Positions 6,295 to 35,525 of a DNA stretch of 38,574 nt are shown here, in pieces. Source of the stretch: an uncultured Actinomycetes bacterium (lineage in GTDB: Bacteria; Actinomycetota; Actinomycetes; Nanopelagicales; Nanopelagicaceae); assembly GCA_903852815.1 (NCBI GenBank), contig CAINRW010000058.1, forward strand, positions 1 to 38,574, in the 5' to 3' direction. The notes below the pieces were generated by a model. It saw only the letters and a program-made list of their open reading frames with translations. It had not been told where the DNA came from and did no database searches. Position 1 is the first letter of the stretch, and the number at the start of each line of letters is the position of its first letter. Made by a program: the position numbers and the translations under genes.

Positions 6295-6352
6295 GCGCAT
6301 CTCCTCTATCTCTGCCTACTTAAGGAGGATATAGAAGGGGACTGACAAATTT
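6258..6352 (-). repeat. VWA 5' end and leader, left copy of 95-bp direct repeat
   Basis: This stretch covers the first 12 codons of the VWA gene, its ribosome binding site and about 55 bp of leader. A diverged copy in the same orientation is at 8430-8524. In the first 47 bases (6258-6304 against 8430-8476) I count 42 identities without gaps; the rest is more diverged and needs small gaps. The two copies bracket the first DUF262 gene. Confidence 0.8.
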
Positions 6353-6453: not shown

Positions 6454-8388
6454 ATGGCGACACTTGATTCACTACTTAGTCAGATTGATTCTGGCTCAAT
6501 GCTTCTTCCTGAATTTCAAAGAGGATACGTGTGGAATCGTGACCAAGTTCGTGGACTCTTACGTTCTCTCTACCTTGGATATCCAGTAGGTGGGCTACTT
6601 GTTTGGGAGACTGAAACGACCGCAGATGACGTCAGAGGAACTAGTGAAGCTGCTGGAAATCGAACACTTTTGCTAGATGGTCAGCAACGTCTAACCACTT
6701 TATATGGCGTCATTCGTGGGCATGCCCCAAAATTTTTCGAAGGAGACAAAAACGCGTTTCTTGGACTTCGTTTTAGTGTTGAAGAGGAATCCTTTGAATT
6801 TTATTCACCCGCCAAAATGAAGGGCGACCCCACCTGGATTGACGTGACGAAGCTTTTTCAAGAGGCCGGTTTAACGCCTTTTATTGACGAATTCAGCGAT
6901 CCGAAATACAAAGAAAAATTCCCAGAATATCTCAAGCGACTTTCCGAACTCTCGAGTATCTCTAAGCGCGAATTCCATCTAGAGAAAATTGTTGGTAAGG
7001 ACAAAACAACTGATGTGGTCGTAGATATTTTTAATCGAGTGAACTCTGGTGGAACTAAATTGAGTAAGGGAGATCTTGCTCTTGCCAAAGTTTCAGCTAA
7101 AGCGCCTGACCTTCGCAGCCAGATGAGGAAAGAGTTGTCCGTTTGGGAATCAAATGGATTTGATTTCAACCTTGACTGGTTTCTCAGAAATATTAATGCT
7201 GTGGCTACCGGAAAAGCGCTCTTTGTGCATTTAGACGATGTTCCAATTTCCGATTTTAAGAAATCATTAGAGTCAACTACAAAATACATAAATTTTTTAC
7301 TAAATCTAATTTCAAGTCGATTAGGGTTGGATCATGCACGAGTATTAATGGGAAGGTTTGCACTTCCAGTTCTTTCGCTTTATCTGAATGAAAATGGCGG
7401 TAAATTCCCAAGTAAGGCCGAACAGGATAAGGCTTTATTTTGGTACATACATGTTGGATTGTGGGGGCGATTTGCAGGTTCTACCGAGTCTATGCTGGCT
7501 CTGGATTATGAAATTTTGAAAAAGTCTGGACTAGATGGCTTAATTAAAGAGATTGAACGTGTTCGTGGTGGAAATCTAAATATTTCTCCGAGTGATTTTA
7601 AAGTTAATACGATGGGATCGCGTTTTTATCCCCTGCTTTATTTACTTACACGCGTAGGTTCAGCCCAGGATTTGCTAACTGGAATAACACTTCGGAAACA
7701 ACTTCTAGGGAGCCTTTCCTCTCTCCAAGTGCACCATATTTTCCCTAAAAAGGTTTTGCGAGACGCGGGAGTTCGTAGGCGTGAAATAAATGCTGTTGCG
7801 AATTTTTGCTTCTTAACTCAGGAAAGTAACCTAATCATTTCCAAGCGTGAACCTAAAGACTATTTTAAACAAGTCATTAAAGAGGCTGGAGAAGAGGCTC
7901 TTGCTTCTCAGTGGATCCCACTTGATAAGAAATTATGGGAGATAGAAAACTACGCCGAATTCCTTGAAGCCAGGCGCGAACTTTTGGCTGAGGCTTCAAA
8001 TACTTTTCTTGACTCATTGCTAAATGGCCAAGCGGATGAATTGTCGTTGCCTCGTCTTAGTGCCCCAGAAGATGAAGACTCCAAAGAACGTAAGGCTGAC
8101 ATCGACAAACTAATTCTTGAATTGGCAGAGTACGGAGTTGTTCCACCTTTGACTGATGTTGAAATTTTCCATCCAGAAACTTTAGAACTACTAACTATTG
8201 CTGAAGCGTATTGGCCTGATGGACTTCAGCCCGGTATGGGGGAACCAATTCTTTTAGAGCTTGATAAAAGAGATGTTGATGAAGAAAAAATGGAAGACCT
8301 TGAAATGAAAGTCTTTTATTCGATTTCCAGATTGAAACGGTTTGTGGCTGCTCAAGCGAAGATTTCTTCAGGGGAATCAAGTGCTTGA
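6454..8388 (+). CDS. DUF262/DUF1524 (GmrSD-like) nuclease, first copy
   Basis: A 644-residue single-chain protein of the DUF262 (ParB/Srx-fold NTPase) plus DUF1524 (HNH) type, the architecture of GmrSD and related modification-dependent restriction enzymes. Motifs: PEFQRGYVW (19-27), DGQQR (75-79), FNRVNSGG (193-200), then the HNH element HHIF (427-430) with Asn450 and Asn459 downstream. A C-terminal 150-residue tail is acidic and charged. It has a good ribosome binding site (CGGAGGA) and its own promoter candidate. It is the only plus-strand gene in the left part of the island and is bracketed by the VWA-leader repeat. By family it may cleave modified phage DNA; specificity is unknown. Confidence 0.88.
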   Translation: MATLDSLLSQIDSGSMLLPEFQRGYVWNRDQVRGLLRSLYLGYPVGGLLVWETETTADDVRGTSEAAGNRTLLLDGQQRLTTLYGVIRGHAPKFFEGDKNAFLGLRFSVEEESFEFYSPAKMKGDPTWIDVTKLFQEAGLTPFIDEFSDPKYKEKFPEYLKRLSELSSISKREFHLEKIVGKDKTTDVVVDIFNRVNSGGTKLSKGDLALAKVSAKAPDLRSQMRKELSVWESNGFDFNLDWFLRNINAVATGKALFVHLDDVPISDFKKSLESTTKYINFLLNLISSRLGLDHARVLMGRFALPVLSLYLNENGGKFPSKAEQDKALFWYIHVGLWGRFAGSTESMLALDYEILKKSGLDGLIKEIERVRGGNLNISPSDFKVNTMGSRFYPLLYLLTRVGSAQDLLTGITLRKQLLGSLSSLQVHHIFPKKVLRDAGVRRREINAVANFCFLTQESNLIISKREPKDYFKQVIKEAGEEALASQWIPLDKKLWEIENYAEFLEARRELLAEASNTFLDSLLNGQADELSLPRLSAPEDEDSKERKADIDKLILELAEYGVVPPLTDVEIFHPETLELLTIAEAYWPDGLQPGMGEPILLELDKRDVDEEKMEDLEMKVFYSISRLKRFVAAQAKISSGESSA

Positions 8389-10894: not shown

Positions 10895-12829
10895 TTAAAA
10901 GGGATAATACTGGAGAAAATTTGTTAATAACATCTCCGCTCGTGCATCAATTAACTCAGGTGTCCATTTTCCAATTCTCTCCGCCTGCCAGTTTTCATTC
11001 AGCGACAGTTTCACAAATCTATTTTCAATTAAAATTTCTTTCTTTTTTAAAAATCTCTCATTGGACATTTCTGTATTTATTGACTTAGGTATAACAGCCA
11101 AGTTACCGAGAGTGTGCAGACGATTCTTTAAAGCACTTGTAGATTCCTCCCACTTGCGGATATCTGCTTTCCATTTATCTGAAGATTGAGGGAATATATG
11201 GTCGATTGTTAAAACGTCAGATTGTGAGCTGCGTAGTAAATTAGAACAATGCTCACCAACTAGGTTTCTTTCAATTCCTTGAAATAGAGCAAGTATCTGC
11301 CGCGAAGTTCTATTTTCGTAAATGTTTCCATTTGAACTGTATGGATCAGTTTTGCTCACTCCTGATGGAAGTAATCTCTTCTTCAAATCTAAATCATTAT
11401 GCTTAGTCTGCTGCAATAAATCTTCCAAGCGCTCCAGTGTGTAATCGCCTCCAAGTTGCCCGCAGATATTCATGATTGAGGCACGTAGAGGGGAAAGAGG
11501 ATCGCCAGAGATAATATATCGCCCCAAATAGTTTTCCACCAAACTAATTCCCCGTTGTAAATCTTCCTTCGCAAAATTTTCAAAGTAGAACCGATTAACC
11601 AAATTCAATAGAAGTGGAACGACTGGGCCGCTTGACATCCATTCCATTGTCAATAAGGATGTTTTTACCTTGTCGGGTAACTCTTTGGTTTCCCGTCCAA
11701 TTTCAATTGGTGTTCCATTTTTCTTAATGCTCGCCCAACTTACTAAATTAGTTAGAATAACTTTTTCGGCTATAGATTTGGCAAGTAAAGTATTACGATT
11801 CGAATTGTAATATTTTGCAAACTGTCGGGCTGTTTTATCCTTACTTACCAATTGGAAACGTCTTTCACCTAACGAAATCAAAAGATCGTATAGGAAAGTG
11901 TCGAATGCCGAGGAACCCTTTACACCAATTTTCAATTTTGCTACTTGACGTTCAACATTCTTCCATGAGTTTTCATACAATTCTGATCTTAAATCAGGTT
12001 CTTTAATATTTGCAAAAATAAAATTCCTTAAGTGGTCAAATTGCATCATTTCTGTTCGCTGACCATTCAATGCATTAAAAATATCCGCTGGATCTTCATC
12101 TTGATTATTCACTTCAAGAACCAGCAAGGAAAGTTTGTCTACAGTTGACTTCAATAAATCTGCTGAGCTATATCCGGTTGATTTAGATATTCGTAAAGAT
12201 GTTCCATTTGCGCTTTGGCTAGTGTTCCTCTTTATTAAACAATCTTTCCAATATGTCTCTATTTCAGAAAAGCTGGTCATGGATTCTTGGTTTCTCGAAA
12301 GTTTAGGCGTTTCATGAGGTTCCTGCTCATTCATTGCATCCTTCCCGAGCCACAAAATCCATCTGAAATACGTGTATGCATGGAGTAATCCACTCTCTTC
12401 GGCCTTGAAATTCCTATAATTGTGAATCCACTTCTTATTCATCACTAAATCCCAGTTTTCTAAATCAGTCTCCTGGCAATAGACGTTGGTAAATTTAACA
12501 TTTAGATCAATACCCTCATCTTTTGAATGATCCAAAATAGCTTGCAACCAAATTCGCAATGTTAGGAGTCTCTGCTGCCCGTCAATAATGTCTATATGTT
12601 TATGCAGCAGTGGACTATCTGCTTTTGAGCACTCAGGTTTGCTCTCCGTCGTTATGGCGACACCAATAAAGTGACTTTCTCGCTGATTTGTCGTTCCTTC
12701 AGCAATATCTCTAATAAGACTCTGCCAGCGGTCTCTAGTCCACTCATATGGGCGCTGATAAGGAGGAATAACCAAACACGTATCTTGACCAAGTAACAAG
12801 TCTCTGACTAATCCAATTTTTGGTTGCAT
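10895..12829 (-). CDS. DUF262/DUF1524 protein, second copy
   Basis: A 644-residue DUF262 plus DUF1524 protein, the same architecture and by chance the same length as the gene at 6454, but with little sequence likeness, so it is not a recent duplicate. Motifs: IPPYQRPYEW (21-30), DGQQRL (83-88), IFNALNGQ in the middle, and the HNH element DHIFP (543-547) with TLGNLA (574-579). The N-terminal half is the ParB-like NTPase domain and the C-terminal third is the HNH nuclease. It is transcribed divergently from the methyltransferase at 13051 across a 221-bp intergenic region. Confidence 0.87.
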   Translation of the reverse strand: MQPKIGLVRDLLLGQDTCLVIPPYQRPYEWTRDRWQSLIRDIAEGTTNQRESHFIGVAITTESKPECSKADSPLLHKHIDIIDGQQRLLTLRIWLQAILDHSKDEGIDLNVKFTNVYCQETDLENWDLVMNKKWIHNYRNFKAEESGLLHAYTYFRWILWLGKDAMNEQEPHETPKLSRNQESMTSFSEIETYWKDCLIKRNTSQSANGTSLRISKSTGYSSADLLKSTVDKLSLLVLEVNNQDEDPADIFNALNGQRTEMMQFDHLRNFIFANIKEPDLRSELYENSWKNVERQVAKLKIGVKGSSAFDTFLYDLLISLGERRFQLVSKDKTARQFAKYYNSNRNTLLAKSIAEKVILTNLVSWASIKKNGTPIEIGRETKELPDKVKTSLLTMEWMSSGPVVPLLLNLVNRFYFENFAKEDLQRGISLVENYLGRYIISGDPLSPLRASIMNICGQLGGDYTLERLEDLLQQTKHNDLDLKKRLLPSGVSKTDPYSSNGNIYENRTSRQILALFQGIERNLVGEHCSNLLRSSQSDVLTIDHIFPQSSDKWKADIRKWEESTSALKNRLHTLGNLAVIPKSINTEMSNERFLKKKEILIENRFVKLSLNENWQAERIGKWTPELIDARAEMLLTNFLQYYPF

Positions 12830-13050: not shown

Positions 13051-14307
13051 GTGGCCTATAAATCCAAGGGTTATAAAGAACCGGTTAACCCGGTTGGCAA
13101 TGTCGCAGAATTATTCGCAGGCGTTGGTGGGTTTCGCATTGGCCTAGCTCGGGCGGGCTGGAAAACTGTATTTTCAAATCAGTGGGAACCTGCCACGAAA
13201 GTTCAACATGCATCTGACGTTTACGTTGCCCGCTTTGGTGAGCATGGCCATAGCAATGAAGATATTGCAAATGTTGAATCTCTTCCTAGAAATATTGATT
13301 TATTAGTCGGCGGGTTTCCTTGCCAAGATTACTCAGTCGCGAAAACACTAAATAGCGCAAAGGGCTTAAAAGGCAAAAAGGGAGTCTTGTGGTGGGAAAT
13401 CCTTCGATTAGTGAATGGTCAAAAGCCCAAGTTTATCTTCCTAGAAAATGTGGATCGATTACTTAAGTCACCTTCAAATCAGCGTGGAAGAGATTTTGCC
13501 GTTATGTTAAAAACCTTGGGCGATGAGGGCTACACCATTGAATGGCGAGTAGTAAATGCTGCTGAATATGGATTTCCTCAAAGACGAATACGCGTATTTA
13601 TCGTGGCAACAAAGAAGAAAAAGGGTGCAAAAAAACAGACACCTGAAAGCATCATAGGTAAGACTGGAATTTTGGCACGCGCGTTACCAATTGGAACAAT
13701 AAATTCAGAACTCCAACAAATTGAATTACTCGATGAAGTCGATCAAGTCAGTACTCGCTTTAATAAAGGCGGTGGCAAAAGCCCCTTCCTGAACTCTGGT
13801 TACTATGTAGACGGAATCGCTTACACTGTTAAATCTGAAGCAAAACTTTCTAACTCTGCAATGGTTCTCGGTGATGTCTTGCAACCAGATTCTCAAGTTT
13901 CCGATGAATATTGGGTCGAAGAGAAGCGCATCAAGGAATGGAAATACCTGAAAGGCGCAAAGAGTATTGAGCGAACTCACAAAGGGTCCGGCACTTCTTA
14001 TACCTACGCAGAAGGAAAAATGGCATTCCCAGATCTACTAACTAACCCCAGTCGCACCATTCTTACGGCAGAAGGTGGCAATACACCTTCTCGTTTTAAA
14101 CATATTATTCAAACAAAGAATGGTTACCGGCGCTTAACGCCGATAGAGCTTGAAAGGCTTAATGGGTTTCCTGATAATTGGACACAATTAGATAATCAAG
14201 GAAAAGTAGTTGCAGACAGTAAACGTGCTTTTTTTATGGGTAATGCCCTTGTCATAGGCTTAATAGAAAAAGTTGGAAAGGTCTTGGCTGACGAATTAGA
14301 CAAATGA
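13051..14307 (+). CDS. C5-cytosine DNA methyltransferase
   Basis: A 418-residue C5-cytosine methyltransferase (Dcm/M.Sau3AI-like) that transfers a methyl group from S-adenosylmethionine to cytosine. Motif I is ELFAGVGGFRIG (20-31), the catalytic motif IV is GGFPCQDYS with Cys91, motif VI is ENVDRLL (132-138), motif VIII is PQRRIRVF, and motifs IX-X follow a target-recognition region, ending RRLTPIELERLNGFP and MGNALVIGLIEKV. It starts at GTG with a strong GGAGGT ribosome binding site seven bases upstream. The convergent Sau3AI-type endonuclease 37 bp away is the partner; from that family the target is predicted to be GATC, methylated at C. Confidence 0.92.
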   Translation: MAYKSKGYKEPVNPVGNVAELFAGVGGFRIGLARAGWKTVFSNQWEPATKVQHASDVYVARFGEHGHSNEDIANVESLPRNIDLLVGGFPCQDYSVAKTLNSAKGLKGKKGVLWWEILRLVNGQKPKFIFLENVDRLLKSPSNQRGRDFAVMLKTLGDEGYTIEWRVVNAAEYGFPQRRIRVFIVATKKKKGAKKQTPESIIGKTGILARALPIGTINSELQQIELLDEVDQVSTRFNKGGGKSPFLNSGYYVDGIAYTVKSEAKLSNSAMVLGDVLQPDSQVSDEYWVEEKRIKEWKYLKGAKSIERTHKGSGTSYTYAEGKMAFPDLLTNPSRTILTAEGGNTPSRFKHIIQTKNGYRRLTPIELERLNGFPDNWTQLDNQGKVVADSKRAFFMGNALVIGLIEKVGKVLADELDK

Positions 14308-14344
14308 CCCTCTAATTTCTAATAACCTTCACTAACATAAAGAA

Positions 14345-15676
14345 TTAAGCTAATTCGCGGACTACGCCTGCGATATATCCTTTGTTTAGCCAAAAACACT
14401 TTTTAACCTGGAAATCACCTTGTGGCGTCGGCAATTTATCCGCACCGTCACGAGCTTTTGGGCGTACATGGGCAACGGGGCTTTCACTCGAGCGTGGTAA
14501 GTCACTTGCATCTATAGAAACTCTGCGTTTAGTTTCTTCCCAAACACGTTGCGCCTCTACGCGATCGGTATATGGCATATTCCAGTAGGAGACTTTTTCC
14601 AGTCTCTCCACATCAAATTCATCTAATTGGAATATTACGAAAAGGAATTTGTGTTCTATTTTGTCAAAAAAACTGGAATCTTCCCAGTTCTCATCCACAA
14701 TATCCAGGTACTTGAATCCAGGAAACGACATAGCTTCGCGCGGACTACCCAATTTCGTTAAACGGACCGTCTTTATTTCAATTCCCGCTTTGTCCAATTC
14801 AAGTGGGAGCTGCTCTTCGTTTACAAGTATTCGATTCACTACATCTTTCAGAAAACCTTTGTGGTTCGCGCTCTTTTGGAAATAGTTAAGGGCGACTGAA
14901 ATTTCCTCCACTGATTTTCCTAAGTAGGGTTGGAATTTTGATTTCGTCACTTCCTCAAACGTCGCACCTAGATTAATGCCTAATACCGGCTGGTTAGCAT
15001 ATTCTCTGTCTATAAGTTTATTAACGTAACTTTGCTTGAAAGAAAAGGCTCTCGCCTTAGCCCTTTCAGTAGAAAAAGGTTGTTTCTTTAAAGCTTCACT
15101 CTCCCCACCAGATCCTTTGCGACAGGCTCCTAAATAGAAAGTGTCCCCTTCGGAGAGTTCATGGGCTTTCCCATCCAAGACGCGCTGTCTAATAAACTCC
15201 CAGTCACGCCTTATTTGTTCTGCATCATTTTTTGGGATTTCATATAGCAGGGGCGATAGCACAAATTTGCGGTCAATGACAGATTTCTCTTTTGTGTATA
15301 AGTACAAAAGAATCAACATCAATTTGCATTTATTATGGAAAGTTGAACTCTCCCAGCTTTCTTTGACGATTGCTTCATAATCAATCATTGTAAGAACAAG
15401 TCGTTCTTTGGCTCTAAATTTTTCCGATTTAAACAAGACGCCGGTAGTTTTAAGCTCGAGACCAGCTTCCTTAAAATCTGGATCATGATTATTTGGTGGC
15501 GTGTGTTCAAAGTAGTACTTTTCAACCAATGAACCCAAATCTCCTCGGTTCCTAGTATTCGTCACGCCTTCAGGAAGATTTACTGCTTCGGCTAAAGTCT
15601 TGCCGATAAGCTTTACCGCAAATTCATAGATGGATGTGACTGAAGTTTTGTCATACTTTGATTCATTATTTGTCAA
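14345..15676 (-). CDS. Sau3AI/MutH-type restriction endonuclease
   Basis: A 443-residue type II endonuclease of the Sau3AI/MutH family. The N-terminal nuclease motifs are visible: GDLGSLVEKYYF with Glu52, DPDF with Asp67, and ELK with Glu74-x-Lys76, followed by KERLVLTMIDY. Sau3AI (489 residues) has a catalytic and a second, inactive MutH-like domain; the C-terminal half here is long enough for the same plan. Family members cut at GATC, and cutting is blocked by C5 methylation. It converges on the methyltransferase gene with a 37-bp gap. The 137-bp gap upstream should carry its promoter. Confidence 0.9.
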   Translation of the reverse strand: MTNNESKYDKTSVTSIYEFAVKLIGKTLAEAVNLPEGVTNTRNRGDLGSLVEKYYFEHTPPNNHDPDFKEAGLELKTTGVLFKSEKFRAKERLVLTMIDYEAIVKESWESSTFHNKCKLMLILLYLYTKEKSVIDRKFVLSPLLYEIPKNDAEQIRRDWEFIRQRVLDGKAHELSEGDTFYLGACRKGSGGESEALKKQPFSTERAKARAFSFKQSYVNKLIDREYANQPVLGINLGATFEEVTKSKFQPYLGKSVEEISVALNYFQKSANHKGFLKDVVNRILVNEEQLPLELDKAGIEIKTVRLTKLGSPREAMSFPGFKYLDIVDENWEDSSFFDKIEHKFLFVIFQLDEFDVERLEKVSYWNMPYTDRVEAQRVWEETKRRVSIDASDLPRSSESPVAHVRPKARDGADKLPTPQGDFQVKKCFWLNKGYIAGVVRELA

Positions 15677-15813: not shown

Positions 15814-17541
15814 TCATTCACTAATATTCATAACTAATGCTTCTGGCTTTTCAAAATCTAGAAGAATCCTAATCTCTTCTCCCTTTATATACTGATGCTC
15901 ATTCATAGCATGTTTAATTGCGGCAGTGAAACCGGTCCAAAAATTTGGAGGGCGAAGTCGGAGTTGCTGTATAGATTCCATACGCCCACAATTACACCCG
16001 ACAGGGAATACGATGTCTTTAATCATCGCTCGCAATTCCAATGGTGGAAATAGCACCCCTGCGGTCATAGTGTTGAGATTAGGGGTTATTCTTAAAAGTA
16101 TATTTGCCCCACTAAATTCAAATTCGACGTGCGTCTTATCTTCGGCAGCATTCGCGATGTTTGCATATCGCTTTACGAAGCCCGGATCAGTTTTCACATT
16201 TGCCAATGCCATAACAGATGAACCCACAGGTCGTATCAAGGGATTGAATAATAAGAAAACACTTACGGAATTGAGATTTTTGCCATCTCGAAGTGCTGCT
16301 GAAGTTAGTTCATTTCGGTGCATCATTCCATTTGGCGAATCCTGAAAAATCTCGAGGAACCAAATGTCGGTGGGGCTGAGTTCTGGTTCTTGATTGGTAT
16401 TTTCTTTATAAGTTTCATATGAAGGGTTTTCTCCGGCTACCTCCTTTATTAGAGCAATTTGATCAGCGTTTGTACCAAAAAGCACGGTTTGGCGATAACT
16501 TGCTTGACGCTCAATTCCAACTAAAACAACTTCTGGTTCTAAATGCCCAAAAACTTTGAGCTGTTTGCCAATTGCGTTCTCAAAGGCCGTATCTAATCGC
16601 GCTGTGCGCGCTAAGACCAAACGTCCTTTAAGCATTGAACGTGGATAAGCCTTCTTTATGGCTTCAAATGCTTCGACATCGCTAGATCTTGTTTCGGCGG
16701 TGTATACGGCAAGGTCTATAAGGCCAAATTTGTTTCGGTACTTTTGCGCTATTTCGCTGAGTGCGCCTTTTGCATCCAGTTGTGCATCCCAGGCTGTTTC
16801 AAGGGCTTCCACGCGGGCGATTAGATTTTCGAGTCCCAAAACCCATAAAACGGATTTTAGCTTTGAGACCGTGATTGTCTCTTTACCTAACAAATCTGCT
16901 TCTGTAAGGATAGAAATGAATTCTTCTTCATTTGCGCACAATTCAAGAGTTTCAACGAAGCCGTTAAGGAGCGAATTTTCTATTTTGAATGGGTCTATTT
17001 GTAAGCTGATGTACTTACTTTCAATTTGACGTATGCGTTCCCTCGTAACGGAAAACTCTAATCCGATATCGTCTAAGGTGCGAAGAGACGTCAGAAATGC
17101 TGGTACACGTCCGCGGAGAATCGCCATTGCCCGGTCGTCTACGCGTCGATATGCGTTATAAACCTGGATAATTCCGGAGATAAGTTCTTCGAAATTAGTT
17201 GCGTCATCAATTGAATCCGGATAATCGAAGTCTTCTACATCAAGTTCGGGAGAAACGAGGAAGGCGTCTCCATCATTCTCAAATGCACTAAAAACTCCAA
17301 TTAACTCTTCAAGTATTTGAACTTTACGTAGTTCTCCCACATTTGGCGTATCCATCAAGTCGGAAAGGTAAAGCCCTTCAATGTGTTTATAACAAATACC
17401 CTCACGCCAAGAGTCACCATATACATGTTGGGAGAGCATTCGATAAAGAGAATTAATCACTGGGTTCGAAAAGTTCTCCCAATGAAGGAGAATCTCTCGA
17501 TTCCCGTTGAAAGGTACCAAATCTGTTAAAAGTTGGTCCAT
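15814..17541 (-). CDS. HhH (alpha-CTD-like) plus sigma region 4-like HTH protein
   Basis: A 575-residue protein with two transcription-machinery-like elements. Residues about 57-82 (YLSDLMDTPNVGELRKVQIL) resemble the helix-hairpin-helix of the RNA polymerase alpha C-terminal domain. Residues about 138-178 (LDDIGLEFSVTRERIRQIES) match the sigma-70 region 4 helix-turn-helix closely. The remaining 400 residues are not recognised; they contain a possible metal pair CNC near residue 518 and a predicted winged-helix stretch (ELSPTDIWFLEIFQDSP). No sigma region 2 is present, so it is not a complete sigma factor. It is the last gene of a tight set, 3 bp after the GHKL ATPase stop. Confidence 0.72.
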   Translation of the reverse strand: MDQLLTDLVPFNGNREILLHWENFSNPVINSLYRMLSQHVYGDSWREGICYKHIEGLYLSDLMDTPNVGELRKVQILEELIGVFSAFENDGDAFLVSPELDVEDFDYPDSIDDATNFEELISGIIQVYNAYRRVDDRAMAILRGRVPAFLTSLRTLDDIGLEFSVTRERIRQIESKYISLQIDPFKIENSLLNGFVETLELCANEEEFISILTEADLLGKETITVSKLKSVLWVLGLENLIARVEALETAWDAQLDAKGALSEIAQKYRNKFGLIDLAVYTAETRSSDVEAFEAIKKAYPRSMLKGRLVLARTARLDTAFENAIGKQLKVFGHLEPEVVLVGIERQASYRQTVLFGTNADQIALIKEVAGENPSYETYKENTNQEPELSPTDIWFLEIFQDSPNGMMHRNELTSAALRDGKNLNSVSVFLLFNPLIRPVGSSVMALANVKTDPGFVKRYANIANAAEDKTHVEFEFSGANILLRITPNLNTMTAGVLFPPLELRAMIKDIVFPVGCNCGRMESIQQLRLRPPNFWTGFTAAIKHAMNEHQYIKGEEIRILLDFEKPEALVMNISE

Positions 17542-17544
17542 GCC

Positions 17545-19698
17545 CTATCGATTTACCAAACCCGCTTGTAGGGCAACTACGAAATCAGGAACTAATTGCT
17601 GCTGACGGGCAAAATACATCGCTGCATCGCTAAAGCGTTCTGGATGCATTTCGGCTTCACGTTCAACAACATATGAAGCGAGTTGTTGAGCCAGCGTTTC
17701 TGAGATTGTTGCGCTTGCCTCTGGGGAGTTTTCATTCTCAAAACCATCTGTTTTATAAGCACCAAAAATGCTTTTAAGTGAACGATGTTTTCCGTACATG
17801 CGAATCATCAATCGGCCTTCTTCGATGCTCGCTGTAACTCTCTGCGGTGGGTTATCACGGCCACTTAATTCGAAGTCCAGTTTTGGATTTCTTTTGTGCC
17901 CTGCTTCAGTAATTCTCACAGTAACTTTAGCCACGGCACTCCCAACAGTTGCGTTAACAACTTCTGTACCCTCGGTTCGACCCGCAACACATACAACACG
18001 TGCTTCGCAGGCAGTTCCTGAAGCATTTGGCTTGAGAGTTACAACAGATTGAGCATCTAAGAGTCCTTCAGTAACTGTCATGTGCGCTCGTTCACCCGCA
18101 TAGGTGATGGGTGCTCTAAGTATGAGAACTTTACGTTTTTCCGGCGCAACACTCACTGTATCTGGATCAAAAACAAGCGAATCGGGAATGGCATCTTCAG
18201 GCGGATCAAAGTCAATAACTGTAACTTCACAAGCTGCAGAAACGTCACTTCTTGTGGCAAAGACTTTTGCGGTACCTATTGATGTCGCTTTGAATCTGAT
18301 TGTGTTGCTTACAACCGGCAAGCGCTCATGCTGGACCCATTTAGATGGATCAGGAATGTCAATAATTTCAATGACATTTGTTCCGGAAGTGATAGAAACT
18401 TGAAGAGGACCCAGATCCATACCTTCTGGTGCGCGTACTGTGAGTGATACTACCTCGCCCTTTTTACAAATGCGCCGCGGAGGAATAATTGTAAGGTCTT
18501 GGAAAAAGTCTTCTGTCCCTGTCTCTGTAGGGATTTCACCTGAGTCACTTGCATCGAGCAATTCCTGTAACTTGTTTGCCAAAGTGTTGCTTAGGGCATT
18601 GAAGCGATTACGTAACTTCTCTCCTTCGCGACGTTGTGCGCCTTCTTCCTCTGCGACAGCTTCTATTAAGGGTTTTAGGTAAGGTTCAACTGCTGCACAA
18701 AGTGCACGCCAATAAGGGTGCTCGCGAACCAATCCTTCTCGACTTCGGCTAATCACACGAGTTGGGTTGTATTCATCCATGCCCCCTTCATCATCAATCG
18801 CACGTGATAAGTCATGTATCTCTGGTGCTTCAAGACGCCCACAGAACCAGCCAACCTCTGGGCGATTAGAAAGATGTAAAAATGTGTTCTCGTAAGTTGC
18901 ACCGCGTCCGCTTACAACTAATCCATGTCGCGAATACCCATTTATAGATCCCAACTCCTTCGTTGGCAAGCGATAAACACTTAGACGTACTGGAAGCTTA
19001 AAATTTGGGACTGCAATGGTCTGATCAAGAACTAATTCGCCAGTTGGAGTCAGACCTTCTAAACGCTTTTTAGTCTTAGTGCGCTCGTCAAAGTAGGTAA
19101 CTTCATTTCGATTGATTAGATCTCGAAGTTGAACGTTTGTTTCCAACTTCTCAACCATTTCAGATGCTGATGGGACACGGTGGCGTTCGTGTAGATAAAG
19201 TTCTGCTGTTAAGCCAGATTCCGCTTCAGATAAGCCCGTTTCTAAACGTGCGTCTGCCGTGGGTGAATCATCGAAGAAGTCCATTTCATATTCTCCTCGA
19301 TGATTAATTTCAAGAGTGCTGTATTTACTATCGCAAATTGAAACAAATCGCGCTCTGCCTAGAGCAGCAATATCTTTTGCACCACGTCCAAAAAGTCCAC
19401 GAGTACCCATTTCGGCGACAGCTTTTTGATTTTTGTCTCCTAGGTTTGTGAAAGCTTCTTCCATACGAGAACCTTGTAGTCCTCCAGCTTTATCACGAAC
19501 GATGAAAACACCTTTATATGGATCAGTAGATTTGATATAACTAATCTCGATATAGCCATTGCCTTTGCCATCATAAGCATCATCGGCATTGGTGATAAGT
19601 TCGATAAGAGCGCGCATGACATCGCCCTTCATGGCTTCTTCGGCATCTTGCTGAAAACCGCGTTGTGTGTATTTAAGTTGACCTTGGCGTTTACTCAT
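17545..19698 (-). CDS. GHKL (Hsp90/MORC-like) ATPase with Ig-like repeats
   Basis: A 717-residue protein. Residues 1-250 form a GHKL ATP-binding fold: N-box Glu33, Asn37 and Asp40 in ELITNADDAY, the G1 element VRDKAGGL (67-74, with Lys where DNGxG is usual) and the lid GLFGRGAKD (101-109). Residues about 345-385 are a charged coiled coil. Residues about 405-610 look like two or three bacterial Ig-like beta domains (KKGEVVSLTVRAPEG; VTVIDFDPPEDAIPDS), uncommon in a cytoplasmic ATPase. The C-terminal 80 residues are helical. Start has GGAGAAG upstream. It sits between the wHTH-like gene and the sigma-4-like gene with 2-3 bp gaps, so the three are expressed together. Confidence 0.82.
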   Translation of the reverse strand: MSKRQGQLKYTQRGFQQDAEEAMKGDVMRALIELITNADDAYDGKGNGYIEISYIKSTDPYKGVFIVRDKAGGLQGSRMEEAFTNLGDKNQKAVAEMGTRGLFGRGAKDIAALGRARFVSICDSKYSTLEINHRGEYEMDFFDDSPTADARLETGLSEAESGLTAELYLHERHRVPSASEMVEKLETNVQLRDLINRNEVTYFDERTKTKKRLEGLTPTGELVLDQTIAVPNFKLPVRLSVYRLPTKELGSINGYSRHGLVVSGRGATYENTFLHLSNRPEVGWFCGRLEAPEIHDLSRAIDDEGGMDEYNPTRVISRSREGLVREHPYWRALCAAVEPYLKPLIEAVAEEEGAQRREGEKLRNRFNALSNTLANKLQELLDASDSGEIPTETGTEDFFQDLTIIPPRRICKKGEVVSLTVRAPEGMDLGPLQVSITSGTNVIEIIDIPDPSKWVQHERLPVVSNTIRFKATSIGTAKVFATRSDVSAACEVTVIDFDPPEDAIPDSLVFDPDTVSVAPEKRKVLILRAPITYAGERAHMTVTEGLLDAQSVVTLKPNASGTACEARVVCVAGRTEGTEVVNATVGSAVAKVTVRITEAGHKRNPKLDFELSGRDNPPQRVTASIEEGRLMIRMYGKHRSLKSIFGAYKTDGFENENSPEASATISETLAQQLASYVVEREAEMHPERFSDAAMYFARQQQLVPDFVVALQAGLVNR

Positions 19699-19700
19699 AT

Positions 19701-20315
19701 TTACTTCTCTTCTCCGTTCAATACTTTACGCTCGACTAGTTGGGCGAATGACATTAATTCGTTGTCTGTTAGAACATCTGCTGCTCTCTTTACATCATGA
19801 ACACGAGATGCCCAGGTGACAGGTGAGCTTGCTGCAGAACATTGAAGTACTGAAGCAAAATCAACAATCGTCAATGAATTTGAATCTGTTTTATAAAGAT
19901 TCCATACATCACTACTCTTTATCTCATGACGCTTTCTTTCGTACATATTTGTTGTTTTCGATGCTTGTACGGGTGAATTTGAATAAACTTTTTCAAGAAT
20001 AGGTAGATAGGTTTCTACCCATCGAACGCCATCCAGTGTTAGGCGACGTGCATATTGGTTTGTGTGATGGAAGAGCCCAACATGAGTCGATGCTTCAACT
20101 GATTGAAGAGCTTTGGAAACCTTCTTGTAGTCAGGGATATCGGGACGCGTACGCCAACTCAACCGTGCAGGGGCTAACTCGTGACACTTCAAGAACATCT
20201 CTTCAACATCTACATCTTTATCTGCCCCGTTGAGAAGATAGAGAGCAAATACGAGTGCATCTTGATTGTTAGCAGTATCACTCGGAGGATCGGTACGGAC
20301 CGTTTTGTTACTCAT
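19701..20315 (-). CDS. Hypothetical winged-helix-like protein
   Basis: About 204 residues from the chosen ATG at 20315 (MSNKTVRTD), which has GGGAGA eight bases upstream; an in-frame ATG at 20345 adds ten residues. The first 110 residues (ALVFALYLLNGA; DYKKVSKALQSVEAS; YARRLTLDGVRWVE) have the helix-helix-strand pattern of a winged helix, suggesting DNA or protein binding. The C-terminal part is helical. No family recognised. It ends 2 bp before the GHKL ATPase start and is the first gene of that trio. Confidence 0.7.
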   Translation of the reverse strand: MSNKTVRTDPPSDTANNQDALVFALYLLNGADKDVDVEEMFLKCHELAPARLSWRTRPDIPDYKKVSKALQSVEASTHVGLFHHTNQYARRLTLDGVRWVETYLPILEKVYSNSPVQASKTTNMYERKRHEIKSSDVWNLYKTDSNSLTIVDFASVLQCSAASSPVTWASRVHDVKRAADVLTDNELMSFAQLVERKVLNGEEK

Positions 20316-20348
20316 AGTAATAAGTCTCCCACTTACGTCTGACATTCG

Positions 20349-24033: not shown

Positions 24034-25368
24034 CTAATCCTTTGGAATTAGATCTAGCCTCATAGGTCTTCCCTGATTTGTACATTCTTCCATCATAAGA
24101 TTAAATCGCTTTTGGACGACATTTGCATTGGTTCGCATTTCACCAATTTCTGTACGGTATTTTCGCCGCTTATCTCCCATAAATGAAAGCCAGTTAAAAC
24201 TTGTTGCAATATAGACATCATCATAAATCAAGATCTTGGCGTGGCTCTCATTTAACTTTATAAATTGAAAGTTTTTTGGATACTTTTCTGACAATTTAAA
24301 AAGCGCCTCGAGTGGGCGTTTACTACTTTTGTTTGCCTCGCTTGGGCGATCGGTTCCAAATCCCCAGGCAATGACTACGTTCACATTTCGCTTAAGCAAG
24401 CTTTCTAGTTTTCCCAGGAAAAGCGAGGTAACAACTCTTTCATTTACCCATGGAGACATAATTAGCAAGCGCTTTGAGGCTGTATCCAAGGCCTCTTCTA
24501 AGAGAGGGGCGTGTTCATAAGGACCAATTGGGCCCCCGTCCTCAGTCGTTTGCGGTGCATCTACAGGACTACTTAAGGCTTTTAAAGTGGCAAGCGCCTC
24601 GCTCGCTCCAACTTTTTCAAAGTCTATGCCTAAAGACTCAAGTCCACCCGCTGCTCGAAGAATTGATTCATGTTCCATAGAGCGCTCATCATTAATCACA
24701 ATAATGAAATCAGATTCTCCGGTTTCTGAATAAAAAATCATTAGTTTGGCTATCTTAAATCCGTATCTGCGTTTTAAAACTCTATGTATGTGGTGTACTT
24801 CGAATTTGGCTCGCTTATTCTGCTTTTCAAGAACTCGATTAATTTGAATTATGTCAAGATCTGCCTGACCAATTGTGTGTTTTTGTGTCTTACCCATCTC
24901 ATAATATGAGGTTTTAGTTTTGTCGAGTGAACTCTTGGTCTCAAAATCACTAAATGGCCAAGACTTAATTTGCCATTGCGCATTGTCGAAAATAATCTGC
25001 TTAGTCGTCGATTTTGGCGTTTCCGCTTGTTTTGTTCGTAAGGTCTCACGGCCTTGAGGCCTAATCGCAATTTTGGTCGGGCTTCCCGAATAGCTCAAAT
25101 TACCCGCTAATTCTTCTAGAGCAATGAGGTCCATTATCAGGCTTTCAGAAAAGCCTAGCGCCTCAGCTAAACCTTCAATCGAATCAATACCTAAATCCAC
25201 AAATCTCAAAATGTATTCTGTGGTCGGCAAAATTTCATCTGTTTGCTGCCCTAACACATCGATATCTAATTTGGATATTGGAATAGCAATATTTTCTATA
25301 GCCAACAATTTTAGATGTTGGTGGACAGATGCATACCGCGCTTCGAGGAATTTATATCGGTCAATCAT
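24034..25368 (-). CDS. PLD-superfamily nuclease-like protein
   Basis: A 444-residue protein with one phospholipase D (PLDc_2-like) domain in its last 160 residues. The catalytic motif is His376-x-Lys378-x4-Asp383 in HAKILIYDD, followed by ATSFNWLSF; MSPWVNE marks the start of the domain. One HKD motif means it would act as a dimer, as Nuc/BfiI-like nucleases do. Residues 1-270 are unknown and include a helical region and an alpha/beta region (EVHHIHRVLKRRYGFKIAKL). The ATG at 25368 overlaps the stop of the kinase-helicase gene by 8 bp; longer in-frame starts lie well inside that gene. The overlap points to a two-gene system. Confidence 0.82.
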   Translation of the reverse strand: MIDRYKFLEARYASVHQHLKLLAIENIAIPISKLDIDVLGQQTDEILPTTEYILRFVDLGIDSIEGLAEALGFSESLIMDLIALEELAGNLSYSGSPTKIAIRPQGRETLRTKQAETPKSTTKQIIFDNAQWQIKSWPFSDFETKSSLDKTKTSYYEMGKTQKHTIGQADLDIIQINRVLEKQNKRAKFEVHHIHRVLKRRYGFKIAKLMIFYSETGESDFIIVINDERSMEHESILRAAGGLESLGIDFEKVGASEALATLKALSSPVDAPQTTEDGGPIGPYEHAPLLEEALDTASKRLLIMSPWVNERVVTSLFLGKLESLLKRNVNVVIAWGFGTDRPSEANKSSKRPLEALFKLSEKYPKNFQFIKLNESHAKILIYDDVYIATSFNWLSFMGDKRRKYRTEIGEMRTNANVVQKRFNLMMEECTNQGRPMRLDLIPKD

Positions 25369-28300
25369 AATCTTTACCCATAACTTGGAATGCTGGATTC
25401 TTCTGCTCGTCGATATAGCGTGCGACACCAGATAAAGCTGAGGACGTGCCAGTCCAGAAATCTTTATCACCAATGATGTGTAACGAATAACGTGCTCGAG
25501 ACAACGCTACATTTATACGACGCCAATGCTTGGCACCCAAGAATCCAACCTCGGAACGATCATTTTGTCTAACACATGAAAAATAGACTATATCTGCTTC
25601 ACGGCCTTGAACTGCATCGATTGAATTAAACTCAATGCTAAAAGGATATTCCTTAACATTGGTAATAATAGATTTTGCCTGGATAATCTGAGCAGCGTAT
25701 GGCGCAATAATCAAGACTTCAAACGGTTTTTCAGGTTTCAGTAGTCCCAAATCAATAAAGTTCCGCAACTGCTTTAATTTATCTCGAATGATAAGTATTT
25801 CATTTCTATTGGAATAGGATAATTTGTCACGGAATTCTGTCTTTTCGCGGTTGGGATAATTGGACGTGTCGTCCCATGAAACTGCAGGGAAAAATGAGGC
25901 AATCTTCGAATCCAGCTTCGGCCCTTTGGATTCTAGAGCATTCGGGTAGAACAAATCAGCAATCATTTGTCCTATCTCGTCCCGCATGCGGTACTGAACA
26001 TTTAAAGAAGTTTTTGCGCTCTCTGGTAATTCTTTATCAAGGAATGAAAATATTGATTCTTCAACTTCATCCGCAGATATCTCATACCTGTTTAAAATTT
26101 CTTTACTTTCCTTGCTTTTCAACTCAATCTCGGATGTAGATAGCTGATTGCTGTCACCGACTACAATCCACTTAGACGATCTGACCATGGAGACAAGCGC
26201 TTGACTAATAGTTGCCCGAGAAGCTTCATCAATTATGCAGATATCAAATTCTAGTTCCCTGACGGCTGGATGAGACATAAATCCGAGACATGTGCCCGCT
26301 AATACTCTACGAGTCTGCAGAAAAACTGAAGTTAGCTGACTCGAAGATCCCACTCGCTCTAACCACTTTGCCTGCGTATCCACCAATTTAATAAACTCTT
26401 TTGTAACTCTCTTGGAACCCAACAAGGCCCCTCTTATTTGTTCTATGTCGAGTCCATCGTAATTCTTAGGGATTGTCAATTTACTTGCCAACTGGTCACG
26501 CAATCGAAGAAACATACGCTCTTCATCTTCGGTTTTCTTTTTTAAGAGTTCCACCGTAGTCAGAGATGATTCGCGACTTAAATCTAAATCATTATAATTG
26601 GATAATTCTGGCTCAGAAACTTCCTTTTTAAGATCTTCTATACTTGTACGTATCTCATCGAGCTCATAAAGAGTTAGAAGTGCGCGTGCATCATCCAAAT
26701 TTATCCCCAAGTTTTGTGCTTGACGGTCAATGAATCCGTTCGAATTGGAACGTAAATCTTTCATCCATTCTTGCATCTGTGTATCAATCAAAAGCTTTTT
26801 ACTTCGTGTTGCGATGCGTATGTCATCAGCCGCACCCAACCGGACACAATCTGAAATATCGCTGTCCATGAGTCGATCTAAAGCATTATCAAGAGCTACG
26901 TGTGTTTGACTCACTAGTAAAATTCTTGCATTCGGATTTCTTTTTAACTCTTGATGCACATATTCAGCAATAAAACTAGTTTTTCCAGTTCCGGGAGGGC
27001 CTTGCACTAAGAGGAAATTCTTAGCACCTAAAGCCTTCTCCACCGTTAACCGCTTGGATTCGTCCAAATTCTTATTTCTCCAATGTTGCACCGTCTTTGG
27101 TGTGAAACTTGGCACCTGAGAAAGGTTTGCCAATAAATCGCCCAACTTTGGTTGAATTGATGAACGTTTTAAAAGTGAGTTAATAGCATCCCGTTGCTTA
27201 CGTAACTGCGAAGCTTCCCCCGCTTCCAATTCTGGAATCAGGAGTCCCGCCTTTCTAATCTTTCCTCGGGGCGCACGGACTAAGAGAAGTTCCATTTCAC
27301 TTCCAATATGAGCCATAACTTCACCAATTTCAGGATTTCCAAAATCCATTTTCCAAAATGTTCCCTCGAGTTCATCGTCAATTGGGTCTTCAAGCTCTAG
27401 TGATATGCGTGATCCCTCGATGGATGCATTCTTATACTTCAATGTTGTGAAATTTTGAATTGCAGCTTCCTCGCGAGCGTCCAAAATCTTGTTCCATCTG
27501 CTGGCCAACTTCTCGATATCCTGGTGAACATACTCCAACATTTCTCCATCGGGACGTCCACTATTTATCCATTCTGAAAATTTATGTGTGATAAAGATAA
27601 AGCCTTCCGAATATTTCTTAGACTCATTCATATTGGCATTTACTCCCCAGTCGATACCAAAATTTCCAAGTTCGAGACACGTTCTACGGTAAAATTCCAA
27701 CTCCTCTGATGTAGCTACATTTCCATGCACCGCAGTCCAGCCTGACTTCTGGCTATTTGCCACTAAGTGCAACTTCATCTGATCAGAAATTAGCCAGAAT
27801 TCCTTTTTATTGTATGTTCCATCTTCATTTTGAATTGGGGAGGCATATAGATTTTTTGATAACTCTTTTCTCAAAGCAACTTCTAAACTAGGAAATCCAT
27901 CGGCAAGTGGCGCAAGTTTGGTACGAACTCTGTCGTCAAGTTTAATCCATGCGAAATACTTATTTTTGTTTTGTAATTTAAGTACGTTCTGACCTCTCTG
28001 TACTAAAGCATAGTTGAGTTCAATCGCACTTGAATATCTGTCCTTTGGGTCAAGTTCAAGACATTTCTTGATTATGTCCTTTGTTTCTTTACTCAAAATT
28101 TCCTTACCATTAGATTTTGTGTCGAGCAATGAAAGTGCATTATCTCTATTCATTGGTCTAATTTTTGTTAGAATTTCAATAGCGAGCACACCAAAAGAGT
28201 AAACATCATGCTGCGCGGATGATCCTTGTACTTCCGGAGTGAAAACGCCAGAGGTCCAATGTAAGTTTGTCATTTCAGTTTCTTGCGGTCCGTACAATTT

Positions 28301-28753
28301 TGCTGCACCGAAATCAGAAATTATTGGGCTTAATATAAAATCATCAATCATGATATTGCTTGGCTTAATATCTCTGTGAAAAACTTTGTTCTCATGGGCA
28401 TATGCAAGGGCGCTGGCGATTGGCATGACTAGGCTCATGAGTCGATTAACAGGAGTTAATCCATTATTCGCAAACAGATACTCTTCAAGATTATTCTCAA
28501 ACCATGGCATCACAATAATGCCAAAATCATTTTCTATGTCGTGATCAAGAATTTGTATGACACCACTATTATCTAAACGCGAGAGAGCCTTGACTTCGCG
28601 TTGATATGACTGTGCTAGTTGAGGATTATCTAATTTTGTAGTTTTAACCGCAACTCGCTCTTCCGTCTCGGTGTCGATACATGCAAAAACTTTAGCCTGC
28701 CCGCCTTGTTGGATTCGCTCTTCATCGATAATTTCAAATCTTTCGAGGAACAC
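25361..28753 (-). CDS. Ser/Thr protein kinase fused to SF1 (UPF1-like) helicase
   Basis: A 1130-residue fusion. Residues 1-255 are a Hanks-type kinase that keeps its catalytic set: Lys37 (VAVKT), Glu53, HRDIKPSN (126-133) and DFG (147-149). Residues about 270-560 are not recognised. Residues about 565-1110 are an SF1 helicase of the UPF1/SMUBP2 type: GPPGTGKT (585-592), Walker B DEAS (842-845), GDSNQL (866-871), QYRM (920-923), then AVQGREADIVYF and VALSRARYSLHII. No transmembrane segment is seen. The start is GTG with GGAG six bases upstream. It overlaps the PLD gene. Kinase control of a helicase-nuclease pair is inferred from the fusion. Confidence 0.9.
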   Translation of the reverse strand: MFLERFEIIDEERIQQGGQAKVFACIDTETEERVAVKTTKLDNPQLAQSYQREVKALSRLDNSGVIQILDHDIENDFGIIVMPWFENNLEEYLFANNGLTPVNRLMSLVMPIASALAYAHENKVFHRDIKPSNIMIDDFILSPIISDFGAAKLYGPQETEMTNLHWTSGVFTPEVQGSSAQHDVYSFGVLAIEILTKIRPMNRDNALSLLDTKSNGKEILSKETKDIIKKCLELDPKDRYSSAIELNYALVQRGQNVLKLQNKNKYFAWIKLDDRVRTKLAPLADGFPSLEVALRKELSKNLYASPIQNEDGTYNKKEFWLISDQMKLHLVANSQKSGWTAVHGNVATSEELEFYRRTCLELGNFGIDWGVNANMNESKKYSEGFIFITHKFSEWINSGRPDGEMLEYVHQDIEKLASRWNKILDAREEAAIQNFTTLKYKNASIEGSRISLELEDPIDDELEGTFWKMDFGNPEIGEVMAHIGSEMELLLVRAPRGKIRKAGLLIPELEAGEASQLRKQRDAINSLLKRSSIQPKLGDLLANLSQVPSFTPKTVQHWRNKNLDESKRLTVEKALGAKNFLLVQGPPGTGKTSFIAEYVHQELKRNPNARILLVSQTHVALDNALDRLMDSDISDCVRLGAADDIRIATRSKKLLIDTQMQEWMKDLRSNSNGFIDRQAQNLGINLDDARALLTLYELDEIRTSIEDLKKEVSEPELSNYNDLDLSRESSLTTVELLKKKTEDEERMFLRLRDQLASKLTIPKNYDGLDIEQIRGALLGSKRVTKEFIKLVDTQAKWLERVGSSSQLTSVFLQTRRVLAGTCLGFMSHPAVRELEFDICIIDEASRATISQALVSMVRSSKWIVVGDSNQLSTSEIELKSKESKEILNRYEISADEVEESIFSFLDKELPESAKTSLNVQYRMRDEIGQMIADLFYPNALESKGPKLDSKIASFFPAVSWDDTSNYPNREKTEFRDKLSYSNRNEILIIRDKLKQLRNFIDLGLLKPEKPFEVLIIAPYAAQIIQAKSIITNVKEYPFSIEFNSIDAVQGREADIVYFSCVRQNDRSEVGFLGAKHWRRINVALSRARYSLHIIGDKDFWTGTSSALSGVARYIDEQKNPAFQVMGKDYD

Positions 28754-29055: not shown

Positions 29056-29142
29056 TTATGGCTTCACTGCCTGCACAGATAGTTTTGGATCAGAATTAAT
29101 GATGTCCAAACCAAAGCGATGCTGATGTATTTGATAGCGCAT
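29056..29142 (-). CDS. Tiny ORF coupled by TAATG
   Basis: A 28-residue frame, starting MRYQIHQHRFG, whose ATG overlaps the stop of the previous gene as TAATG and has GAGGAG four bases upstream. The coupling and ribosome binding site argue that it is translated. Together with 28847-29053 it may be a frame-shifted remnant of a single protein of about 95 residues. Confidence 0.35.
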   Translation of the reverse strand: MRYQIHQHRFGLDIINSDPKLSVQAVKP

Positions 29143-29696
29143 TAATCTCCTCGAAGCCTTGGTCCATAAACAAGCTCATGGACTGGACCGGGTAAAGGTG
29201 AAATTGGACTTAGGCACCCAAGAATCAACGGGACTTCAGTCGTACCGCCGAGGTAACCCATCTCCTGAGCAAGCTTTTCAAAAGAAGTAAGTGAGCCAGC
29301 ATCTCTTGGGCTTATTATCTTTAGGAACTCATTTGATGCCGCAAGCAATAGGGATTGCTTCACCTTTTCTTTTCCTGTCATTTTAATGACATCAAACAAT
29401 TCAGCTCCAACACTCATTTGATGTCTAAAAGTAATTCGAACCCAGGTATCCCCTTTGCGATATCGAGAATTATTTCCTTCCCAGTCATTTGCCGGAAATC
29501 GTTCATCAATGATTTCATTCAAATATTTCTGAATCCCAAATGCAGTTATTTTTCCTTTAGAGCTTTGAATAGCTCTGATAGTCGTAAAACGTGTAGCAGC
29601 CTCATTCCAGATGCCGTTTAATAAGCTCAAAGCTTCAATTGACTCAGGTGAAGGATCTTGGGTGTACCAGGTTGGTCGCTTCAAATCAGCTTTCAA
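29142..29696 (-). CDS. Hypothetical protein, possibly restriction-endonuclease-like
   Basis: A 184-residue protein starting at TTG (29696), chosen because AAAGGAG lies six bases upstream and the start overlaps the stop of the PLD-SNF2 helicase gene by 11 bp. The core DWEGNNSRYRKGDTWVRITF, then SVGAELFDVIKM, then EVPLILGCL vaguely recalls BglII-type endonucleases, but I cannot point to a clear catalytic D..ExK or ExQ set. Translational coupling to the helicase is the firmest evidence for a joint role. Confidence 0.6.
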   Translation of the reverse strand: MKADLKRPTWYTQDPSPESIEALSLLNGIWNEAATRFTTIRAIQSSKGKITAFGIQKYLNEIIDERFPANDWEGNNSRYRKGDTWVRITFRHQMSVGAELFDVIKMTGKEKVKQSLLLAASNEFLKIISPRDAGSLTSFEKLAQEMGYLGGTTEVPLILGCLSPISPLPGPVHELVYGPRLRGD

Positions 29697-33048: not shown

Positions 33049-33051
33049 GAA

Positions 33052-35173: not shown

Positions 35174-35258
35174 AAAATTCTCCCCCTAAATTCGGTAAAG
35201 CGTAGCGATACACCTACTAATAAAGCTATAACTTGAACATTCAAATATGGTTAATTTC

Positions 35259-35522
35259 TCAATTTCTATAATCTGGACAACAGTTTCTGCATGGCCTTTT
35301 TGAGGCGAATGCGACTCTCCACCCAACTGGATTAATTGGGTGAATATTCATACCTTTTTCACCTGCCTCCTCTTGGCCAGCGGCCAAAGTTTCACAATTG
35401 GGACGATTGTGAAAGGCTAATCCGCCACTGGTTATGTATACGATTTTGTTTATTCCTACCGGTGGCATTTTGCAATGCGAGCACTCCCCGAACATAAAGT
35501 CATGAATACATCTATCCGTCAT
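35259..35522 (-). CDS. Small Cys/His-rich, probably zinc-binding protein
   Basis: An 87-residue protein. Cys5, Cys14 and Cys17 (GECSHC) form a first likely zinc site, and His38, Cys43, Cys78 and Cys81 (RPCRNC) a second; Cys82 follows. The segment VYITSGGLAFHNRPNCETL between them is typical of small domains seen next to DNA-processing enzymes, but I do not recognise the family. It starts 3 bp after the stop of the SF2 helicase and lies 85 bp before the GHKL ATPase, all on one strand. Confidence 0.65.
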   Translation of the reverse strand: MTDRCIHDFMFGECSHCKMPPVGINKIVYITSGGLAFHNRPNCETLAAGQEEAGEKGMNIHPINPVGWRVAFASKRPCRNCCPDYRN

Positions 35523-35525
35523 AAA

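Follow-up and report, generated by a model that had tools for sequence, protein, structure and literature searches.

A winged-helix protein, a GHKL-S5 ATPase and a sigma-4 protein encoded side by side in an actinobacterial defence island, and their possible role in immunity

In the 1.63-Mb draft genome of an uncultured Actinomycetes bacterium (GCA_903852815.1), a contig of 38.6 kb (CAINRW010000058.1; the whole stretch of 38,574 nt is referred to as the window) carries on its minus strand three closely spaced genes for a winged-helix (wH) protein, a GHKL ATPase and a protein carrying sigma factor region 4 (gene 3). We asked whether this trio belongs to a known defence system, and what such a combination of parts might do in the cell.

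Domain composition of the three genes

The genes follow one another on the minus strand in the order wH (19701–20315), GHKL (17545–19698) and gene 3 (15814–17541), with intergenic gaps of 2 and 3 bp. These boundaries had been given in an earlier note made from the sequence alone and proved correct, including the start at 20315: an upstream ATG at 20345 would yield a wH protein of 214 aa in place of 204 aa, and the homologue in a genome of the same genus (G472, locus L011) starts at the methionine equivalent to 20315. None of the three proteins showed a nuclease or any other killing domain.

The wH open reading frame belongs to a family of 52 aligned sequences (A3) and was matched by no family model, and Foldseek returned no significant match for the whole protein. 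Its AF2 model (pLDDT 89) consists of an N-terminal winged helix followed by helices. The winged-helix domain (residues 22–124 of the 214-aa frame; 19974–20282) aligned best with SSV1 F-93 in VIA-align (Z 9.5, rmsd 2.5, 85 residues aligned), in agreement with the winged-helix-like protein of the earlier note. The C-terminal helical part (residues 130–209; 19719–19958), delimited by the secondary structure of the model, shows conserved columns across the 52 relatives.

The second gene encodes a protein of 717 aa with a weak Pfam match to HATPase_c (6e-4). In an alignment of 59 homologues (A4), E33, N37, D40, D69, G73, R100 and G106 were identical in all 59 sequences, and the N-box (E..N..D), G1 (DxGxG) and G2 motifs were intact; given this alignment, we regard the GHKL assignment as certain. 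The AF2 model (pLDDT 88) contains a GHKL and S5 transducer module (residues 9–354; 18637–19674) that aligned with MORC2 (9cdh, a structure that includes DNA; Z 22.2, rmsd 3.4, 303 residues aligned) and also with Hsp90, TRAP1 and SMCHD1 in VIA-align. Since the module is common to Hsp90 and other proteins, the match is not specific to MORC. The S5 domain of MORC proteins carries a GhXhhpXXRhl motif (PMC2292703), and at the position of its arginine, as assigned on alignment A4, arginine was not among the common residues and alanine occupied 48 of the 59 sequences. The protein was therefore not assigned to MORC despite its fold. Two Ig-like beta domains follow (residues about 403–495 and 514–596; 17911–18492), visible as strands in the AF2 model and matched by Foldseek to the Ig-like repeats of LigA, so that the intact ATPase motifs and Ig-like repeats noticed earlier both stood up to closer analysis. 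The C-terminal alpha+beta domain (residues 606–714; 17557–17883) is common to two GHKL subfamilies, the Ig-type proteins of A4 and a second subfamily without Ig repeats (alignment A9): hhalign joined the C-termini of the two alignments with a probability of 93.9 (E 1.6e-7), and the two subfamilies aligned over their full length (99.8).

Gene 3 encodes 575 aa, and its open reading frame has a sister copy in L011 and homologues in four further genomes (L124–L127). Region 4 (residues 126–184; 16990–17166), detected with Pfam and NCBIfam models, matched SigA region 4 at an E-value of 1.7e-8 with a two-sequence profile (A5) and retains the SigA recognition helix VTRERIRQIE, in which the window copy and the same-genus copy of G472 agree at every residue of TRERIRQI; on these matches we consider the presence of sigma region 4 certain. 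Sigma region 2, responsible for core binding and −10 recognition, was not matched in Pfam and NCBIfam scans of the protein. The alpha-CTD (PF03118) gave no match at E<=1 on the protein or at E<=10 in the genome, and a profile built from the alpha-CTDs of the homologues reported no domain in the window copy. A degenerate alpha-CTD-like stretch may lie at residues about 46–85 (17287–17406), as judged by the position of the homologues' alpha-CTD in alignment A10. Among those homologues, Pfam detected alpha-CTDs at 4.4e-14 (L126), 7.8e-16 (L127) and 6.3e-22 with two copies (L124), and none in L125. The alpha-CTD of L127 aligned to bacterial alpha-CTD structures and kept the R..NC residues, which we take to be the UP-element face. 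The earlier note had described a protein with a sigma-4 HTH and an alpha-CTD-like HhH but no region 2, and had proposed profile searches as the check: sigma-4 and the lack of region 2 stood, whereas the alpha-CTD failed in the window copy but holds for homologues. In L125 (7489–10281) and L124 (6102–8816), the gene-3 homologues are 904–930 aa long, with several alpha-CTD-like repeats ahead of sigma-4.

All of these homologues matched the window protein at sigma-4, and those of L125 (8.5e-9) and L127 (5e-7) also matched it at a separate C-terminal region (residues about 389–460; 16162–16377), which, judging by its sequence, is probably of winged-helix nature. In promoter recognition by RNA polymerase, sigma-4 touches the −35 element and the alpha-CTD touches the UP element. 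Gene 3 is thus predicted to carry promoter-touching parts but not the parts by which a sigma factor binds the core enzyme.

Distribution of the wH–GHKL pair and of the full trio

Scanning a genome collection yielded 80 loci. In a set of 80 loci that includes the window, a wH gene adjoined the GHKL gene in 53, across many bacterial phyla and archaea; it lay directly upstream in 52 and downstream in one (L062), with a spacing of −107 to +20 nt. Six-frame re-scanning of the remaining 27 loci revealed no hidden wH gene. On a tree of 75 GHKL proteins, the label for wH presence or absence changed 6 times, compared with 21.7 times in shuffles, and 21 of the wH-less rows fell into a nearly pure clade centred on Gemmatimonadota, Rhodothermota and Acidobacteriota; loss of the wH gene is clustered on the tree. 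The phyla were otherwise intermixed, with archaea among the members. The wH–GHKL pair is an ancient unit and forms a widespread family that none of the libraries used (PADLOC, NCBIfam and Pfam) names. L023–L058, of the Gemmatimonadota/Rhodothermota clade, represent an Ig-type GHKL clade that lost its wH partner.

Nearly all Ig-type loci contained the pair without gene 3, which indicates that gene 3 is dispensable for the pair, and no recurrent third gene was found beside Ig-type pairs. Relatives of the GHKL protein were absent from the plasmid, phage and E. coli collections, those of gene 3 from the plasmid collection, and those of GHKL, gene 3 and the second-subfamily GHKL from viral contigs. 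Generic GHKL matches in a Rhizobium plasmid, G214 and G190 had no wH or gene-3 neighbour and were set aside.

The very broad distribution, archaea included, would suit a pair for chromosome structure or repair that serves general physiology and lies in a defence island by chance, as would the weak likeness of the wH protein to the winged helices of MukE/MukF and ORC. We consider this very improbable: presence is patchy (2 of the order's 201 genomes and 5 of the phylum's 396), phyla are mixed on the tree, defence genes are found among the neighbours, and the genes diverge faster than core genes.

The search for the full trio covered the phylum, plus the surroundings of Ig-type loci in other phyla. 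The trio was found in the window, in the same-genus genome G472 (L007) and in four further genomes (L124–L127), which represent two other classes of that phylum. Within the order, it is present in only 2 of 201 genomes. In G472 the order is that of the window and the genes overlap by 1–4 nt. Identity between the two copies was 58% for wH, 45% for GHKL and 31% for gene 3, against 71–73% for core genes near the island. The trio has therefore diverged far more than nearby core genes, the pattern that a conflict unit would show if it moved horizontally or evolved fast.

The more distant trios were reached with the wH profile, which gave 8 matches over 296 genomes of the phylum, 5 of them in genomes without an Ig-type GHKL. 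In all five, the wH gene stood beside another GHKL-type or Ig-bearing protein, and in four also beside a gene-3 homologue; our initial candidate conclusion that gene 3 is limited to the same genus was accordingly rejected. The GHKL of these four loci (L124–L127) belongs to the second subfamily and has no Ig repeats; in L127 the contig ends within it. Their order is gene 3–wH–GHKL in L126, L127 and L124, and gene 3 is divergent in L125, giving three arrangements in all; in the window, L007, L124, L126 and L127, successive genes overlap or are separated by 2–3 bp. The earlier note had asked whether the three genes stay together in the defence islands of other genomes, and the same-genus genome together with the four genomes of two classes, with another GHKL subfamily and other gene orders, answers that they do.

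The fifth genome holds a third architecture (L128, 4520–8077), where, in reverse order, the wH gene has two neighbours: one encodes a HARE-HTH-like protein of 182 aa, the other a protein of 808 aa that weakly matches Big_2 (Ig) and appears by eye to be a GHKL. One match of the gene-3 profile (L021), located beside a DnaG-type primase, was discarded as it looks like a housekeeping RpoD.

Relation to named systems and proposed mode of action

No named family in PADLOC 2.0.0 or NCBIfam 20.0 was matched above its cut-off by the trio, in keeping with the earlier note, which had not recognised a named defence system. The literature searched, which covered few subscription papers and preprints, held no paper describing the trio. 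Its nearest kin appear to be parts of PglW of type-2 BREX, MzaA/MzaB, BbrUII-type restriction ATPases and MORC.

MZA (mzaABCDE) is a validated defence operon with a sigma-4-bearing MzaA and a GHKL ATPase, MzaB, according to PMC9523054, which cites Gao 2020. Both systems thus combine a sigma-4 protein with a GHKL ATPase, and gene 3 and its homologues match MzaA over sigma-4. However, the similarity to MzaA is confined to sigma-4, none to MzaB rose above the cut-off, the trio lacks Z1, AIPR and the other Mza partners, and a wH partner is absent from MZA as described there. Testing for the five-gene operon revealed no match to MzaB–E in the trio or its direct neighbours.

PglW has an alpha-CTD-like domain followed by wHTH modules (PMC12839542), and the gene-3 homologue of L126 matches it over 796–951 at 3.6e-9. 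PglW, however, also carries a NERD nuclease and kinases and acts together with BREX proteins; in the trio only the DNA-reading half is found, with wH and GHKL alongside. The type-2 BREX set (NERD and kinase PglW, PglX, PglZ and BrxC) was not found among the window proteins scanned.

MORC and paraMORC families sit in restriction operons (PMC2292703) and share with the trio the GHKL and S5 module, the island context and, for MORC2, the best structural match. The trio GHKL differs in lacking the motif arginine, in its Ig-like repeats and in a C-terminal domain of its own, and its partner is a wH protein, not an SFII helicase. For the paraMORC extensions (RE fold, TIR and ExxxH motif), Pfam gave no nuclease or TIR match; the extensions of paraMORC1 and 5 lie outside this comparison. 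Type I-D Shedu (VcSduA, a paraMORC3) likewise has a GHKL ATPase, which is required for anti-phage activity (PMC12137116), but its DUF4263 nuclease domain had no Pfam match in the trio. BbrUII/HgiDII enzymes resemble the second-subfamily GHKL (8e-20) in their own N-terminal GHKL, but the match stops after the GHKL part, and the corresponding model NF050001 scored 70.8 bits for L124, far below its curated cut-off of 550, and did not match the window GHKL. Finally, CapK/CapS pairs a GHKL kinase with a wHTH repressor ahead of immune operons (PMC13373217), which resembles a GHKL protein and a wHTH protein adjoining immune genes; the trio has no STAS domains by Pfam, and its ATPase module is of the S5 type, not that of an anti-sigma-type kinase. 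Since the defining set of none of these systems was found and no curated cut-off was reached, we classed the trio as an island system built on a GHKL and having partners of its own.

Recurring within defence islands of distantly related bacteria, the trio looks like an unnamed immune module. We tentatively read it as a three-protein, DNA-acting defence module that loads a clamp on promoters of incoming DNA, and give this reading a little under an even chance. Observations behind it are the tight gene unit, the folds, the invariant ATP site, the sigma-4 recognition helix, the alpha-CTDs of homologues, the repeated occurrence of the trio and its setting among defence genes. Against it count the lack of a nuclease in the trio, the pairs that do without gene 3, the degenerate alpha-CTD of the window copy and neighbour tallies made with no matched control. 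The complex that we infer would be directed to promoters with specificity for foreign DNA, would act as a clamp and would have an anti-phage outcome. In line with the suggestion of the earlier note, the unit may sense or block transcription of invading DNA, with regulation of the island as a rival reading. Gene 3 would read promoter-like DNA through sigma-4 (−35 element), the alpha-CTD in homologues (UP element) and further HTH domains. The wH protein would serve as a near-constant DNA-binding partner and is likely the adaptor of the GHKL-S5 ATPase, which, like MORC, MutL and Hsp90, is expected to form a dimer with ATP and to clamp shut around DNA. The promoter reader would then load this MORC-like clamp via the wH adaptor at promoters of incoming DNA or next to them; once loaded, the complex could block or compact that DNA there, or deliver it to a nuclease encoded by another gene of the island.

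A further, rather unlikely reading is silencing immunity, in which a portable reader made of alpha-CTD and sigma-4, parts taken from RNA polymerase, directs the ATP-driven MORC-like clamp to invader promoters and shuts them without cutting. By analogy, this would be a bacterial parallel to MORC-mediated transposon silencing in eukaryotes. If the trio is a defence system, invaders would be recognised by promoters that the host polymerase can read, which every phage needs and would find hard to lose, and a bacterial GHKL-S5 system with no evident nuclease would be added for comparison with eukaryotic MORC silencing. The trio also ties PglW, MzaA and MORC-type operons together through common parts.

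Defence-island setting and alternative roles

The window is a dense defence island, comprising a Sau3AI-type restriction–modification system, two GmrSD-type genes, a Schlafen-group helicase, Mokosh and a cluster of MORC, PLD-SNF2 and helicase genes. Elsewhere, defence genes are frequent beside the pair: a PADLOC tally of 290 pair neighbours, made with no matched control, included restriction methylases, specificity subunits, Hma, DrmD/BrxH-type helicases and DpdF, as well as AbiE, SoFic, PsyrT and DndB-type proteins. Past the trio, a Sau3AI-type restriction enzyme gene follows at 137 bp in the window and a Dsr1-type SIR2 gene at 55 bp in L126; L125 has a type II methylase and a candidate restriction enzyme as neighbours, and the next same-strand gene of L124 looks like a transposase. 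In G472 (L007/L011), a GmrSD gene directly follows the trio, 61 bp on.

Such neighbours raise the alternative that the trio controls transcription of adjacent defence genes, with gene 3 binding promoters, wH as the regulator and GHKL as a switch responding to infection or DNA damage, a role comparable to that of CapK/CapS or CapW. Gene 3 mimics promoter-recognition parts, the wH fold resembles that of MarR-type regulators, and the three co-directional cases in which the contig continues for another gene (window, L007/L011 and L126) all have a defence effector next. However, whatever lies next to a gene within a defence island will probably have a role in defence too, the transposase-like gene of L124 departs from the pattern, and for most wH–GHKL pairs at other loci the downstream gene varies and is often on the opposite strand. 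The S5 ATPase transducer also differs from the STAS-GHKL kinase layout of CapK, and the wH protein, modelled as a winged helix plus helices, has no STAS domain by Pfam. We therefore judge a regulatory role somewhat unlikely; even so, it would mean that promoter-reading parts of RNA polymerase have been reused to control immune islands.

A restriction-type system, in which the complex marks or loops DNA and an outside nuclease cuts it (e.g., the adjacent Sau3AI-type enzyme or GmrSD), seems quite unlikely to us. It would fit the GHKL-part match of the second subfamily to BbrUII/HgiDII, the methylase and candidate restriction enzyme beside L125, and the MORC/paraMORC families of restriction operons (PMC2292703), for which the same role has been proposed. 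Nevertheless, no nuclease is a constant neighbour, and the Sau3AI enzyme, which is paired with a methylase of its own, comes from a self-sufficient family. The clamp-loading module remains our preferred, still tentative, reading.

Several other features of the island were recorded. Directly downstream of the trio, positions 13051–15676 encode the Sau3AI-family restriction enzyme (above the NCBIfam cut-off) and a convergent C5 cytosine methyltransferase, and further on lie two different GmrSD_N (DUF262) genes (6454–8388 and 10895–12829), one with no GmrSD_C match. On the other side, positions 24034–28753 hold a Mokosh-like pair, the kinase-helicase MkoA (6.7e-176) and MkoB (7.8e-53). The cluster at 29142–38243 contains a second MORC-like GHKL (33704–35173; HATPase_c_3 and Morc6_S5) with a PbeA-like helicase, and resembles the MORC–SFII–HKD restriction operons of PMC2292703; within it, the PLD/SNF2 helicase (29686–33048) matched NF042964, a phospholipase D-like anti-phage protein, below the cut-off. 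Finally, core genes of the window (a VWA protein and its neighbour; 3999–6300, L007/L129) are 71–73% identical in G472, and the defence islands of the two genomes flank opposite sides of this core segment, which suggests an integration hotspot.
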